Part shown: positions 29,246-36,200 of the stretch, piece by piece
Layout: each line of letters opens with the position of its first letter
Position numbering within the stretch: position 1 is the first letter of the stretch
Source: a bacterium
Lineage (GTDB): Bacteria > Armatimonadota > UBA5829
Assembly (NCBI GenBank): GCA_021371935.1
Contig: JAJFVF010000013.1
Span: forward strand, 310,001-374,000
Reading direction: 5' to 3'
DNA length: 64,000 nucleotides
Translations under genes and position numbers: made by a program
The notes under the pieces: generated by a model
What the model was told of the DNA's origin: nothing
What the model saw: the letters and a program-made list of their open reading frames with translations, nothing else
The model's database searches: none

Positions 29246-29393
29246 TTATGCCTCCTGCGGTTTCTTTATGGATATCAAATCCTCTGATATCCATTTGTAT
29301 TTTTCCTCAGTTTTGATGAATTCTGTATACCTGATTTGCCATTACTTGTAAGCCTGTCTATATAGATGGAGAGACATCACGGGATTGCGAGTG

Positions 29394-29503
29394 AGTTCAG
29401 CTATCCGGGATTTTTCGGCTCAGCAGGAGCTTTGCCATCCCAGTAATGATCTTGCCGGGATGGCGAGGTTCCCACCGAGCCATATTTGCTCTCGAACTGA
29501 ACT
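29394..29503. repeat. 110-bp AGTTCAG/CTGAACT element, full copy
   Basis: The element has terminal inverted repeats AGTTCAG and CTGAACT and long internal arms: GGCTCAGCAGGAGCTTTGCC pairs with GGCGAGGTTCCCACCGAGCC, making a large cruciform. It lies in the 331-base gap 29246-29576 upstream of metY, which otherwise shows no gene or recognisable riboswitch. Other copies: 18226, 33879; fragments: 17369, 59141. Confidence 0.8.
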
Positions 29504-29576
29504 GCTTCGGGATTGCAAGTCACCCGCAAAAGTGGTATGCTCTCAAATAGATCGGCTGGAGGATTACACACGAATC

Positions 29577-30857
29577 ATGTCAGACAACTACTCATTCGAC
29601 ACAAACGCACTGCACGCAGGCCACGAGGTCGACCCGACCGGCTCACGTGCTGTACCGATCTACCAGACAACATCATACGTATTCAAAGACACTGAACATG
29701 CCGCCGATCTCTTTGCGCTGGACAAACCGGGATTCATATATACAAGGCTTCAGAACCCGACTCTGGACGTGCTCGAAAAGCGCGTAGCCTCCCTTGAAGG
29801 CGGAGTTGGCGCACTGTCGACCGCGTCCGGCCAGGCAGCGGAGACACTGGCCGTTGTCAATATCGCAAAAGCGGGAGACGACATAGTCTCATCGGCTGCC
29901 CTATACGGCGGCACATATACTCTTTTTAACACCACTCTCCGCAGACTTGGGATAAACACCATATTCGTCGATGCCACTGACCCAGAAAACTTCCGCAGGG
30001 CGCTCACGCCCAAGACGAAGTTGTTATATGTGGAGACGCTCGGCAATCCGAAGCTGGATGTAGTCGATATCCAGGCGATAGCAAATATAGCCCATGAGGC
30101 AGGCATTCCGCTCATTATCGATAACACAGTCGCAACGCCGTATCTGTGCAGACCCATTGAGTGGGGAGCCGATATCGTGATCCATTCGCTGACCAAATGG
30201 ATGGGCGGACATGGCTCGTCACTGGGCGGGATCATAGTAGATTCGGGCGAATTCGACTGGACAAACGGCAACTTCCCGGATCTGGTCGATCCAGACCCGA
30301 GCTATCATGGGCTGTCGTTTACAAAGTCATTCGGCGATGCGGCATATATAGCCCGTGCACGTGTCAGCGCAATGAGAGACCTTGGTCCGACGTTGAGTCC
30401 GTTCAACGCATTTCTGATATTGCAGGGAATCGAGACTCTCTCGCTGCGTATGGACAGGCACAGCTCGAATGCTCTAGCGGTTGCGAAATTCCTTGAGGGT
30501 CATGCAGCAGTCGGATGGGTCAATTATCCAGGGCTTGCGAGTCATCCCGGCCATAAGCTGGTCGGCAAATATCTGCCTAAGGGCTGCAGCAGCCTGATCG
30601 GCTTCGGGATAAAAGGCGGGTTTGAGGCTGGTGTCAAGTTCATAAACTCAGTAAAGCTACTTTCGCATTTGGCCAATATAGGTGACAGCCGTTCGCTGGT
30701 GATTCATCCTGCCAGCACGACTCATCAGCAGCTATCCACAGATGAGCGCGAGGCTGCAGGCGTGACTGACGATTTTATTCGCCTATCAATCGGCATCGAG
30801 GACATCAACGATATCATTGCAGACATCGATCAGGCTCTGGAGGCGTCACAGAGGTGA
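29577..30857 (+). CDS. metY: O-acetylhomoserine sulfhydrylase
   Basis: A 426-residue Cys/Met-metabolism PLP enzyme of the MetY group. It makes homocysteine from O-acetylhomoserine and sulfide. Motifs: [43 protein letters not shown], the PLP lysine in [11 protein letters not shown] and [12 protein letters not shown] start at ATG 29577, where [15 protein letters not shown] matches family N-termini and GGAGG lies 14 bases upstream. The open frame continues upstream through the repeat element but that is not family-like. It is the first gene of metY-metX-metW and overlaps metX by 4 bases. Confidence 0.93.
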
Positions 30858-32017
30858 TTACCAGTGAACCCGGGTCGGTCGGGATAGTCGATACGCAATA
30901 TTTCACATTCGCTGAGCCGCCGAACGAGCTGGACCTCGAGTGCGGTCGCAAACTCGGACCCATAACGCTCGCCTATGAGACCTACGGCAACCTGAACGCC
31001 GACAAGAGCAATTGCATACTGATCTGTCACGCACTAACAGGCGACTCTCATGCCGCCGGCACGCACGCCGGTGAAGAAAAGTCACTCGGCTGGTGGGACA
31101 ATATGATCGGACCTGGCAAGGCGTTCGACACGACAAAGTATTTTGTCGTCTGCTCAAATATAATCGGCGGATGCAAGGGCAGCACCGGTCCCAGGTCTAT
31201 CGACCCAAAGACAGGTAAGCCATATGCGCTCAACTTCCCGATGGTGACGATACCAGACATGGTCCATGCGCAAAAAGCCCTCATAGACCACCTCGGGATC
31301 AAGCAGCTTATGTGTGTGGTCGGCGGAAGTATGGGCGGCATGCAAGTGCTCCAATGGGCTGTAACCTACCCAGACATGGTTCGCATGGCGATACCCATTG
31401 CGACCACCGCGAGGCTCTCGCCCCAGGCAATTGCGTTCGATGCAGTGGGCAGGCAGGCGATCATGGTCGACCCAAACTGGAACGAAGGCAACTATTACGA
31501 TAGCGACACCCCAAGCGGCGGCTTGAGCATTGCGCGAATGATCGGGCATATAACCTATCTATCCGACAAGTCCATGACATCTAAATTCGGGCGAAATTTG
31601 CAGGACAAAGACAACCCCGAATATGATTTCGTGACTGAGTTTCAAGTGGAGAGTTATCTCAACTATAAAGGCGACTCATTCGTCAAGCGCTTCGACGCGA
31701 ATTCGTATTTGTATATAACCAAGGCAATGGACTATTTCGACCTCTCGCAGCCCAGCGGTGAACTGCGAAAGAGCCTTGCCGGTGTGAAATCGGCTTTTCT
31801 GGTCGTATCGTTCTCATCCGACTGGCTGTTTCCGTCGTATATGTCCAAGGAGATCGTGGCAGCCTTGAGGCGAAACAACGTGGATGTCAGCTATGCAGAG
31901 ATTCAGTCGGATTATGGGCACGATGCGTTCCTGTTGGAAGTGGATGCGCTCAGCCGCCTGATCGAGAGTTTCCTTGAATATGCCGACCCCATGAATGGAC
32001 ATGATGATGAGTTCTGA
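30854..32017 (+). CDS. metX: Homoserine O-acetyltransferase
   Basis: A 387-residue alpha/beta hydrolase acetyltransferase. It has [25 protein letters not shown] near the N-terminus, the nucleophile motif [13 protein letters not shown], and the catalytic Asp/His in SSDWLFPS and YGHDAFLLE. It acetylates homoserine to feed MetY. The GTG start overlaps the metY stop (GTGA), with GGAGGC about 10 bases upstream, so the genes are translationally coupled. The 3' end overlaps metW by 23 bases. A succinyl donor is possible in this family and cannot be excluded by eye. Confidence 0.93.
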
Positions 32018-32639
32018 AATATCGACAACCGGCCGCGAGTATAATCTTCAGCCCGAGCTGAAACATATAGTGGACATGGTCAAGCCAGGAAGCCGCGTGC
32101 TCGACCTCGGCTGTGGTGAAGGCGATCTGCTCAAAGCCCTGCAGATTCAAAAACGCGCGCGTGTGCAGGGAATCGAACTATCGGACACCGCCATTCAGGA
32201 GTGCATCACAAAGGGCTTGTTCGTCTATCATGGCGACCTTGACGAGGGTCTGGCCGACTTCAACGACCAGAGCATGGACTATGTGATCCTCACAAACACC
32301 ATTCAGGTGTTGCACAGGCCGGACTTTCTGATACAGGAAGCCGCCAGAGTCGGCAGACACTGCATCATATCGATCCCGAACTTCGGGTATTGGAGGGTGC
32401 GCTTCCAACTGTTGTTGAAAGGGACCATGCCCCGGACCAGCCGACTGCCGTATGACTGGTATGACTCGCCCAACATCCACCTAACCACAATCGCCGACTT
32501 CAGACGGTTTTGCAGAGAACATGATCTTGCCATCGTCCATGAGACGAACCTCGTGATCGGCGAAAACAAATGCGACCCTGTCCGGTTCGCTCCAAATATA
32601 CTTTCCGACTACGGCATATTCCTGCTCAAACAAAAATAG
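31995..32639 (+). CDS. metW: Methionine biosynthesis protein MetW
   Basis: A 214-residue methyltransferase-fold protein. It has [62 protein letters not shown] and [17 protein letters not shown], a series diagnostic for MetW. MetW pairs with MetX, and their genes are commonly adjacent. It overlaps metX by 23 bases and is last in the operon. The role in methionine synthesis is well supported by context, although its chemical reaction is not settled. Confidence 0.9.
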
Positions 32640-33773: not shown

Positions 33774-33853
33774 ATAGCACGCATTATTCACAAGAAATGT
33801 GAACAATGCTCTCGGAGACCCGTATTATGCGCCTCCCTCATAATACGGGATAG
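33774..33853. repeat. CTAG double-hairpin element, degenerate copy 2
   Basis: The same two-hairpin order as copy 1 in reverse: GCATTATTCACA...TGTGAACAATGC, then CTCGGAGACC, then CCGTATTATGCG...CATAATACGGG. Its outer CTAG ends are decayed to CTATAG / GATAG. It sits between the outer-membrane protein gene and the AGTTCAG repeat at 33879. Confidence 0.75.
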
Positions 33854-33878: not shown

Positions 33879-33989
33879 AGTTCAGTTATATGAAAATTTT
33901 CGGGTCAGAAGGAGTTTTGTTCTCCCAATAATGGGCTTGCCGGGAAGGCGAGGCTCCCGCCGAGCCATATTTGCTCCCGCAAACCGAAC
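33879..33989. repeat. 110-bp AGTTCAG element, copy upstream of the chaperonin
   Basis: A 111-bp near-relative of the element at 29394, with AGTTCAG at the left and CGAACT at the right and arms GGGTCAGAAGGAGTTTTG / CGAGGCTCCCGCCGAGCC. It ends 46 bases before the chaperonin ATG and may carry or displace its promoter. Confidence 0.75.
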
Positions 33990-34035: not shown

Positions 34036-35601
34036 ATGGCTAACAACATCAGACAGACAAACAGTCCAAATGAAGCAGACGAGCGAGTATCCGCTCTGGT
34101 CACAAACGCTGCTGCCGTGAGCGCGCTGGCATCGGCAGTGGAAGGCACACTGGGACCCAAAGGGCTGGACTGTATGCTCGTAGATAAGTTTGGGGATGTG
34201 ACCGTCACGAACGACGGCGCCACGATCCTCGACAAGATAGATACCAACCATCCCGCCGCGCAGATGCTGATAAAGGCTGCACGCGCACAGGAAAATGAGA
34301 TAGGCGATGGCACGACCACGACAGCAATCCTGGCGTGTGCATTGATCTCCGAAGGGCTGGCGAATGTCCAGAAGGGCGTTCCGGTGACCAAGGTGATCGA
34401 GGGCATGCGTTTTGGCGTAAAGGCTGCTCTCGACTTTATCAAGCATCAGGCGGCACAGAATTCAGCCGATAAGCATCTGACACAGGTGGCGCTGGTTGCC
34501 GCGCGAGGCAATGAGGACATTGCGGGCTTGATCGTGGAGGCGGCGCGCCTCGTGGGTAATGAGAAGCTCAAAGACCCAGGTTACTGCCTTGCAGACGCGA
34601 TAGTCGCCAAGGAATATGCTCAAAACGAAGTCTTCACGGGCGTGATTTTGGATAAACAGCGCCTGAGCAGGCAGATGCCTCGAAGCATTGAAAATGCCAA
34701 AGTGTTCATAATCGACGACGCGCTTGAGCCGGGTCAGGTTGAGGACGATGCGCTTGCGACAGAGTCCGGCTTTGCGAGATATATGGCTCTCCAGGACGAG
34801 TTCAGGCGCGATGTCGAAAAAATTGTCGGGTTGGGAGTCACATTCATCGCGGCATCAAAGGCAATCGATCCTGTGGCGGAAGAAGTTCTCACAGACACCG
34901 GCGTGCTGGCAGTCAGACGGCTGTCATCACGGGATATTGCCAGGTTGGTAGAACTCACCGGCGCACGCACACTCAAGCGCTCAGGTCTTGCAAAGGACCC
35001 AGCCGAACTGCAAGGTTTCCTCGGCACCTGCGATAGGGTATACGAGGATGAACGGCTCGACCATATCAGAGTGCTCGGAGGCAAAGGTCATGGCATGCCC
35101 ACTGTGATTGTCGGAGCATCGACACGTGAGGTCAAAGACGAACGCGAAAGGATAGCCAGAGACGCCGCTGGAGCCGTACAGTCGGCCGTGAAGACCGGCG
35201 TGGTGGCCGGCGGTGGAGCGATCGAGATAGGCGCTGCAAAGCATATACTCTCGCTCAAAGAAAAGGCTCATGGCATGGCGTCATACGGCATCGACGCAGT
35301 TTCGGCTGCGTTGAAACGGCCGCTGAGCCAGATCGTTGCGAATGCCGGTTTCAACCCTCTGGAGAAGGTCGAGGAGGTTCTGTCAGCGCAGAGTAAAGCA
35401 GACGACTGTTCGCTTGCAATAGACTGCGACACAGGTGAGGTATGCAATATGACCAAGTGCGGCGTAGTCGATCCGGCAGGTGTGAAATTATATGCTCTGA
35501 GCACGGCAGCCGAAGTTGCAGAGGCCATCCTTAGGATAAACACAATCATCAGAAAGCGGGAGGAGTCTGCCGCCCCCGCAAAGTCATCGGAGTTGATATG
35601 A
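34036..35601 (+). CDS. Group III (thermosome-like) bacterial chaperonin
   Basis: A 521-residue Hsp60. It looks archaeal/CCT-like rather than GroEL-like: VEGTLGPKGLDCMLVDKFGDVTVTNDGATIL at residues about 45-75, the ATPase loop GDGTTTTAILA, and VAGGGAIEIGAAKHI with an acidic GEVCNMTKCGVVDPAGVK segment near the C-terminus. The GroEL GGM tail is absent. Bacterial group III chaperonins, known from Carboxydothermus, have a built-in lid and need no GroES; they are often encoded beside dnaK-operon genes, as here with grpE. ATG at 34036 starts MANNIRQTNSPNEADERV but lacks a clear SD. The longer in-frame start at 33931 lies inside a repeat. Confidence 0.9.
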   Translation: MANNIRQTNSPNEADERVSALVTNAAAVSALASAVEGTLGPKGLDCMLVDKFGDVTVTNDGATILDKIDTNHPAAQMLIKAARAQENEIGDGTTTTAILACALISEGLANVQKGVPVTKVIEGMRFGVKAALDFIKHQAAQNSADKHLTQVALVAARGNEDIAGLIVEAARLVGNEKLKDPGYCLADAIVAKEYAQNEVFTGVILDKQRLSRQMPRSIENAKVFIIDDALEPGQVEDDALATESGFARYMALQDEFRRDVEKIVGLGVTFIAASKAIDPVAEEVLTDTGVLAVRRLSSRDIARLVELTGARTLKRSGLAKDPAELQGFLGTCDRVYEDERLDHIRVLGGKGHGMPTVIVGASTREVKDERERIARDAAGAVQSAVKTGVVAGGGAIEIGAAKHILSLKEKAHGMASYGIDAVSAALKRPLSQIVANAGFNPLEKVEEVLSAQSKADDCSLAIDCDTGEVCNMTKCGVVDPAGVKLYALSTAAEVAEAILRINTIIRKREESAAPAKSSELI

Positions 35602-36155
35602 AGCAGCACAAAGAAAATACAACACATAAGGTCCCAATCGACCCGGATGAACAAGAAGTCGTATCGAACGAAGAAGTCGTCTCGGACATGCAGATTCTGC
35701 AAGAAGAGATAGAGAAACTGCAAAATGACGTCCAGGAAGCGCATGATAAATATATCAGAGCACTTGCGGATTTCGATAATTACCGCAAACGCCAGCGCGA
35801 GGAGACCGCCCGCTCGTGCGATTTTGCTCGAATAGAAGTAATAAGCACCCTGCTGCCTATAATCGACAATTTCGAGCGGTCTGTGCAGGCCGCCGAAGAG
35901 AATCACAGCTACGATGCTTTGGTGGAAGGCGTGTCGCTTACTCTGCGTCAGCTTCATGATATGCTCACCAAACAGGGCGTAGAACCTATTGAGTCTGTGG
36001 GTCAGGAGTTCAATCCCGAGCTGCACGAGGCGCTGATGAGAGTGGACACGGACGATTACCCCGAAAACACAATAGTCGACGAGCTTGAGAAGGGCTATAC
36101 GCTCAACGGAAAGGTGCTGCGCCCTGCCCGCGTGCGAGTGGCTATGTCCGATTAA
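35598..36155 (+). CDS. grpE: Nucleotide exchange factor GrpE
   Basis: A 185-residue GrpE. It has a charged N-terminus, a long dimerising coiled coil (about 25-90: LQEEIEKLQNDVQEAHDKYIRALADFDNYRKR) and the C-terminal beta domain (VEPIESVGQEFNPELHEALMR; GYTLNGKVLRPARVRVA). GrpE releases ADP from DnaK. The ATG overlaps the chaperonin stop by 4 bases (ATGA), so the two chaperone systems are co-translated. Neither dnaK, dnaJ nor hrcA is in the window. Transcription probably ends shortly after. Confidence 0.95.
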   Translation: MKQHKENTTHKVPIDPDEQEVVSNEEVVSDMQILQEEIEKLQNDVQEAHDKYIRALADFDNYRKRQREETARSCDFARIEVISTLLPIIDNFERSVQAAEENHSYDALVEGVSLTLRQLHDMLTKQGVEPIESVGQEFNPELHEALMRVDTDDYPENTIVDELEKGYTLNGKVLRPARVRVAMSD

Positions 36156-36166
36156 TTACAAACAAA

Positions 36167-36200
36167 AACGGCTCACCCCGATATATCGAGATGAGCCGTT
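36167..36200 (-). terminator. Terminator between grpE and the hypothetical gene at 36220
   Basis: AACGGCTCA and TGAGCCGTT make a 9-bp stem. On the minus strand it is followed by TTTTTG, so it is a good terminator for the minus-strand gene; on the plus strand the tail (ATTG) is weak. Confidence 0.75.

Follow-up and report, generated by a model that had tools for sequence, protein, structure and literature searches.

The window analysed here, the whole 64,000-nt stretch (positions 310001-374000 of contig C13, in a 98% complete Armatimonadota genome of 3.54 Mb on 22 contigs), carries a chaperonin gene, cpn3, that runs directly into grpE. This arrangement raises two questions: what kind of chaperonin is encoded, and does its closeness to grpE reflect a working partnership or the history of an operon? 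Chaperonins of Group III assemble as double rings, show little cooperativity and fold their clients independently of GroES. The initial annotation of the locus had described a thermosome-like Hsp60 with the motifs TNDGATIL and GDGTTTT that overlaps grpE by 4 bases; both motifs are present in the cpn3 product, and the overlap was confirmed in the sequence as ATGA (Table 1).

The cpn3-grpE unit and its genomic setting

At the junction, GGAGTTGATATGAAGC, the grpE start codon ATG (35598-35600) overlaps the cpn3 stop codon TGA (35599-35601), and a GGAG motif (35589-35592) lies five bases ahead of the grpE ATG. We infer that the two genes are probably co-transcribed, and they are probably translationally coupled as well. 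The cpn3 reading frame contains a further in-frame ATG at 33931; alignment with relatives fits the start at 34036. Among NCBIfam models, the archaeal thermosome matched the cpn3 product best (289 bits, compared with 183 bits for GroEL), with all scores under the cut-offs, while GrpE reached 160 bits with NF010738 (cut-off 137) and is spanned by the PF01025 profile from residue 24 to 182. In the 15-row alignment of cpn3 relatives, residues G90-T95 (the GDGTTT loop) and D376 are unchanged and R157 is, like D376, invariant. The ATPase residues, DGT and the catalytic Asp, align in 16 of 16 rows of the chaperonin alignment.

Table 1. Features of the cpn3-grpE region (positions within the window).
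Feature	Position	Strand	Basis
Perfect 11-N9-11 inverted repeat, not CIRCE	33819..33849		Divergent intergenic region upstream of cpn3
cpn3, Group III chaperonin gene	34036..35601	+	521 aa; PF00118 (Cpn60_TCP1) 377 bits; tree; alignment; AlphaFold model
GGAG ribosome-binding-like site and 4-base ATGA stop/start overlap	35589..35601	+	Sequence
grpE, DnaK nucleotide exchange factor	35598..36155	+	185 aa; PF01025 174.6 bits; sole genome match
15-pair hairpin, candidate end of the two-gene unit	36167..36200		Just past the grpE stop; terminator scan

Other components of the chaperone network are encoded at a distance. Whole-genome searches gave no HSP70, DnaJ, Cpn10 or HrcA match on contig C13, in agreement with the initial annotation, which had noted the absence of dnaK, dnaJ, groES and hrcA from the window; all of these are located on other contigs, and the grpE of the window is the single GrpE match of the genome. 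HSP70 matches lie on C12, C7 and C19, DnaJ matches on C12, C2, C8 and C9 (that on C19 being below the cut-off), Cpn10 matches on C7 and C10, and the HrcA match on C12. With respect to dnaK, groEL and groES, whose search elsewhere in the genome had been proposed, C12 carries a full-length dnaK followed by hsp20, dnaJ and the gene of a MerR-type regulator, and two groES-groEL pairs are found on C10 and C7. No zinc-finger domain was found in the C12 dnaJ product, the MerR-type regulator may by analogy be hspR-like, and hrcA is ~26 kb away from dnaK.

The consensus patterns that we take to represent CIRCE and the HspR box matched nowhere in the window at up to 3 mismatches, and control of cpn3-grpE by either element was rejected on these grounds. 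Within the same genome, CIRCE was detected solely ahead of the two groES-groEL pairs, with 0 and 1 mismatch, while a reversed CIRCE pattern used as control gave 2 forward and 2 reverse matches at up to 3 mismatches. An HspR-like box near dnaK (L009:13892, 2 mismatches) is within chance expectation, as 33 of 200 shuffles also reach two matches. The inverted repeat upstream of cpn3 has CIRCE-like spacing and another sequence; its exact pattern occurs in 2 of 212 loci, both of them the window's own DNA, and no such repeat was seen upstream of cpn3 in a 90%-identical relative, for which reasons it was rejected as an operator. The scan judged the hairpin past grpE terminator-like for the minus strand, the strand of its T run, and counted 7 terminator-like sites in the region, compared with 3.1 (sd 1.8) on average after shuffling.

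As to the flanking genes, neither Pfam nor NCBIfam yielded a match at E 0.001 for a 333-aa ORF divergently upstream of cpn3, and methionine genes stand in a row at 29385-32639 (O-acetylhomoserine sulfhydrylase, metX, metW). The segment 37148-38065 encodes an AAC(3)-like N-acetyltransferase (PF02522, 177 bits) that is probably not a resistance enzyme, since its score falls short of the cut-off for each of the five NCBIfam AAC(3) models listed.

Assignment of the chaperonin to Group III

A tree of 72 chaperonins was built with 37 of the 40 Armatimonadota cpn3 (the other three being shorter than 450 aa) and 22 of the 66 non-Armatimonadota loci. Support for Groups I, II and III was 100/100, 100/99 and 97/96, respectively. 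The 37 Armatimonadota rows form a single clade (95/97) with Group II outside, and the window cpn3 is nested among Armatimonadota relatives, in sets supported at 100/98 and 100/100, apart from the genome's own two GroELs. A branch set Group I apart, without the window cpn3, in all 200 bootstrap trees (100%); the placement within GroEL that the initial annotation, in calling for such a tree, had named as evidence against its assignment did not occur. The Bacillota rows are not monophyletic, as L194 joins the Armatimonadota (87/95), and Ch-CPN, the chaperonin of Carboxydothermus hydrogenoformans, is found on a long branch. An AU test constraining the window row to join Group I did not reject the constrained tree (p 0.155). 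We take this outcome as uninformative and read it as the long Group I branch being free to attach anywhere, the tip of the window included, because the identity of the window row to the Group III sequence beside it still amounts to 90%.

Structural comparisons point in the same direction. Among PDB entries, the best sequence match of the window chaperonin is 9rwq (588 bits), labelled ‘ACII’ in the PDB copy used and, according to excerpts of PMC12696368, an ancestral Group III protein. It is followed by 5x9u (Ch-CPN, 430 bits), the best natural sequence match, which covers residues 6-509, and Group II proteins reach 268 bits or lower. The AlphaFold model, built from 15 sequences with a mean pLDDT of 87.8, most closely resembles 5x9v (TMq 0.89, rmsd 1.9 over 491 columns, 44% identity) and then 5x9u (TMq 0.88), these two being closed and open Group III crystals.

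In the alignment, the window chaperonin is devoid of the 6-residue nucleotide-sensing-loop insert that is present in 6 of 6 Group II rows, and its R157 aligns with the Arg of Ch-CPN. Excerpts of PMC5635000 give the absence of the nucleotide-sensing loop and an Arg replacing the Group II Lys as the mark of Group III, and state that Group I possesses the loop. Unlike this latter statement, the three GroEL rows in our alignment are likewise gapped at the insert, and the loop gap thus separates Group III from Group II only. The lid region (203-268) is gap-free against Ch-CPN, but not against the three GroELs, and the six Group II rows carry 4 more residues here than the window chaperonin. Loop gap, Arg and lid length are hence common to the window protein and Ch-CPN (5x9u/5x9v). 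The Group II archaeal thermosome is like the window chaperonin in fold and built-in lid, but forms its own clade and differs by the loop insert and the extra lid residues.

Taken together, the tree (97/96), the fold match to 5x9v and the loop, Arg and lid features uphold the earlier proposal of a group III chaperonin, and we regard the identification of the window protein as a Group III chaperonin of the built-in lid type as solid. Membership in the common Cpn60_TCP1 family and the matches, at lower score, of GroEL models would be compatible with a divergent GroEL paralogue that carries thermosome-like motifs by chance; this reading is contradicted by the tree, the fold ranking and the lid alignment, and we attribute practically no probability to it.

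Gene neighbourhood in Bacillota and Armatimonadota

According to excerpts of PMC5635000, genes of Group III chaperonins, the group of Ch-CPN, are located within the dnaK operon with one exception, and a link to DnaK is suggested; excerpts of PMC5220055 speculate that DnaK delivers clients to the Group III chaperonin. At the present locus, this location, which is usual for Group III yet not strictly defining, was not encountered: grpE alone adjoins cpn3, and dnaK is on C12. To view the broader picture, the best 80 of 163 cpn3 loci from named genomes were scanned, 14 of which were assigned to Armatimonadota, the other 66 having mostly Bacillota titles. Among these 66 loci, counted where the flank is long enough, hrcA lies within 1 kb upstream of cpn3 in 64 of 64, grpE is the next gene at a distance of at most 300 nt in 61 of 65, and dnaK follows downstream in 57 of 59, the usual Bacillota order being hrcA-cpn3-grpE-dnaK-dnaJ. 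Four loci (L190, L193, L194, L199) have hrcA, cpn3 and dnaJ without grpE, and the dnaK of L199 is a 109-codon piece. As exemplified by Sporomusa ovata (L153), the Bacillota operon resembles the window in that cpn3 stands directly upstream of grpE on one strand, but includes dnaK, dnaJ and hrcA, which the genome of the window has on other contigs.

A further difference concerns CIRCE, which the window lacks and the Bacillota operon carries: an exact copy was found at most 100 nt from the hrcA start in 63 of the 66 non-Armatimonadota loci, versus 0 of 39 Armatimonadota cpn3 loci (L042-L066, L216-L229), where a single 3-mismatch match (L063:7341) was seen although hrcA is beside cpn3 in 22 of 36. 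Judged from these motif counts, regulation of the cpn3 operon by HrcA seems to characterise the Bacillota form and to be missing throughout the Armatimonadota loci.

The rarity of group III chaperonins that the initial annotation had mentioned, along with their kinship to dnaK-operon genes, is borne out, the former in Armatimonadota by the presence of cpn3 in 40 of 291 genomes (30 of 194 high-quality ones), the latter by our locus comparison and by the excerpts of both papers cited above. Where cpn3 is present in this phylum, grpE comes after it in 30 of 37 genomes, hrcA before it in 22 of 36, and a nearby dnaK was seen in 2 of 31. These ratios cover those of the 40 loci that have enough flank for the gene in question, and their counts are not independent, since many genomes have one event in common. 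Both genomes with dnaK nearby (f12) show the order hrcA-cpn3-grpE-dnaK. Seven genomes of the window's family have enough flank, and the 1 kb upstream of cpn3 revealed hrcA in none of them; one, G002, has the gene 1.7 kb upstream. Cpn3-negative relatives have hrcA before grpE in 13 of 29 loci with enough flank (grpE loci having been obtained from 31 of 35 genomes, 2 of the 31 short-flanked for this count). Within the window's genus, each of the 4 genomes with cpn3 has it next to grpE (that of the window, G002, G003 and G004; the cpn3 identity is 83% for G003). G004 and the window have metX, metW and the next upstream ORF in common, and the flanks obtained for G002 and G003 contain nothing else that matches a window gene at E 1e-8.

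The patchy occurrence of cpn3 in the phylum (40 of 291 genomes) might be taken to indicate a recent horizontal gain from Bacillota or Archaea, and the two f4 genomes, which the GrpE tree places with the class of the window, lie on long branches beyond that class in the cpn3 tree, be it by transfer or artefact. However, the Armatimonadota sequences form one clade (95/97) with Group II outside, and in both phyla cpn3 has the same operon position, with hrcA before it and grpE after it, so that we deem a recent gain very unlikely; an ancient transfer of cpn3 is possible. Viral carriage was considered and rejected; relatives of the chaperonin on viral contigs (best 80 of 155) are 22-35% identical, save for a 119-residue fragment (L260) at 46%.

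Probable operon inheritance and a possible partnership with GrpE

On the basis of the neighbourhood comparison between Bacillota and Armatimonadota, we consider the cpn3-grpE pair a remnant of an ancestral hrcA-cpn3-grpE-dnaK-dnaJ operon, and it is probable in our judgment that the window encodes an ordinary Group III chaperonin, which would serve as an extra general folding chamber. In the simplest reading, the loss of dnaK from this heat-shock operon would fall early in the history of Armatimonadota and that of hrcA in the family of the window, leaving the cpn3-grpE pair in the window's lineage, while dnaK (in a putative dnaK-hsp20-dnaJ-hspR-like operon) and hrcA now reside on another contig. 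The protein would form an ATP-driven double-ring folding chamber shut by its own built-in lid, with GroES not needed, its ring and ATPase cycle being those expected of the group. Its likely role would be that of a chamber for aggregation-prone clients beside DnaK and the two GroEL-GroES systems. Coupling would set co-expression of cpn3 with GrpE and would not thereby require a physical hand-over.

From the tight coupling, the initial annotation had proposed that the two machines fold clients in series. In its explicit form, this proposal implies that GrpE-driven client release from DnaK feeds the Group III chaperonin and that selection has kept the coupling. It agrees with grpE outlasting dnaK as neighbour of cpn3 in Armatimonadota (30 of 37 versus 2 of 31), with the adjacency of cpn3 and grpE throughout the window's genus while flanking genes change, and with the delivery by DnaK that is speculated upon in the excerpts of PMC5635000 and PMC5220055. 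Yet grpE is not beside cpn3 in 7 of the 37 Armatimonadota genomes that carry cpn3 within enough flank, so the linkage is not universal. Counted by eye, the link to grpE is broken in about four lineages (f18, f6, f35, G005), about as many as the roughly five in which the link to hrcA is broken (f1, f18, f35, f36 and one f45 genome), and two f18 and two f6 genomes have cpn3 while grpE sits elsewhere in a dnaK-hsp20-grpE-dnaJ-hspR cluster.

The GrpE tree also speaks against a dedicated hand-over. It comprises 57 rows (26 from among the 40 cpn3-bearing genomes and 31 from cpn3-negative ones), was computed from the last 200 residues by a quick method with SH-aLRT support only, and implies at least 10 changes of cpn3 state, at least 6 of them forced by supported branches, with grpE kept. 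Within the window's own genus, G001 (98% complete) has grpE and no cpn3. Of 31 adjacent cpn3-grpE pairs, 7 overlap by exactly 4 bases when starts are taken as the first in-frame codons. Given the linkage breaks, the state changes and the 7 of 31 overlaps, co-expression of cpn3 and grpE is likely and a dedicated hand-over possible; with repeated loss of cpn3 while grpE was kept, and breaks of the grpE and hrcA links on about the same scale, we judge such a hand-over to be improbable, and the proposal of serial folding is not sustained. The adjacency is best read as operon inheritance. Somewhat less probable still is the notion that GrpE, and not DnaK as such, is the functional partner of Group III chaperonins in Armatimonadota, the pair being kept as a two-gene unit after the departure of dnaK and hrcA since client release triggered by GrpE is timed to chaperonin capture.

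Several loci deserve separate mention. In L045 (G005), ~3.6 kb separate cpn3 and grpE and hold a second, 77-aa cpn3 fragment. Five other Armatimonadota loci (L104, L105, L106, L107, L131) display the order dnaK-hsp20-grpE-dnaJ-hspR; 4 of these 5 genomes have cpn3 elsewhere, and none was found in the fifth, G055. In the window's family, G007 (reported 100% complete, 260 contigs) has dnaK but lacks cpn3, and its best GrpE match does not go below E 1.6, which may represent either a common assembly gap or joint loss. The GrpE proteins of four cpn3-negative members of this family (L097, L098, L099 and L100 in G008, G009, G012 and G014) are on, or grouped with, a very long branch.

The cpn3-grpE pair of the window is largely expected, as the Group III chaperonin and the hrcA-cpn3-grpE-dnaK-dnaJ operon were already known. 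What is new is the scope: the published rule that all but one of these genes are in the dnaK operon does not hold in Armatimonadota, a phylum on whose Group III chaperonins we found no papers in the literature collection searched. The Armatimonadota pattern thereby both extends and limits the published statement. In the published work, as far as the excerpts show, the link between Group III chaperonins and Hsp70 is founded on gene neighbourhood. In Armatimonadota, cpn3 occurs near dnaK, between hrcA and grpE, beside grpE alone or beside neither, and has been lost from further genomes, and these variants constitute a ready comparative set for the question of whether the chaperonin needs GrpE or DnaK.
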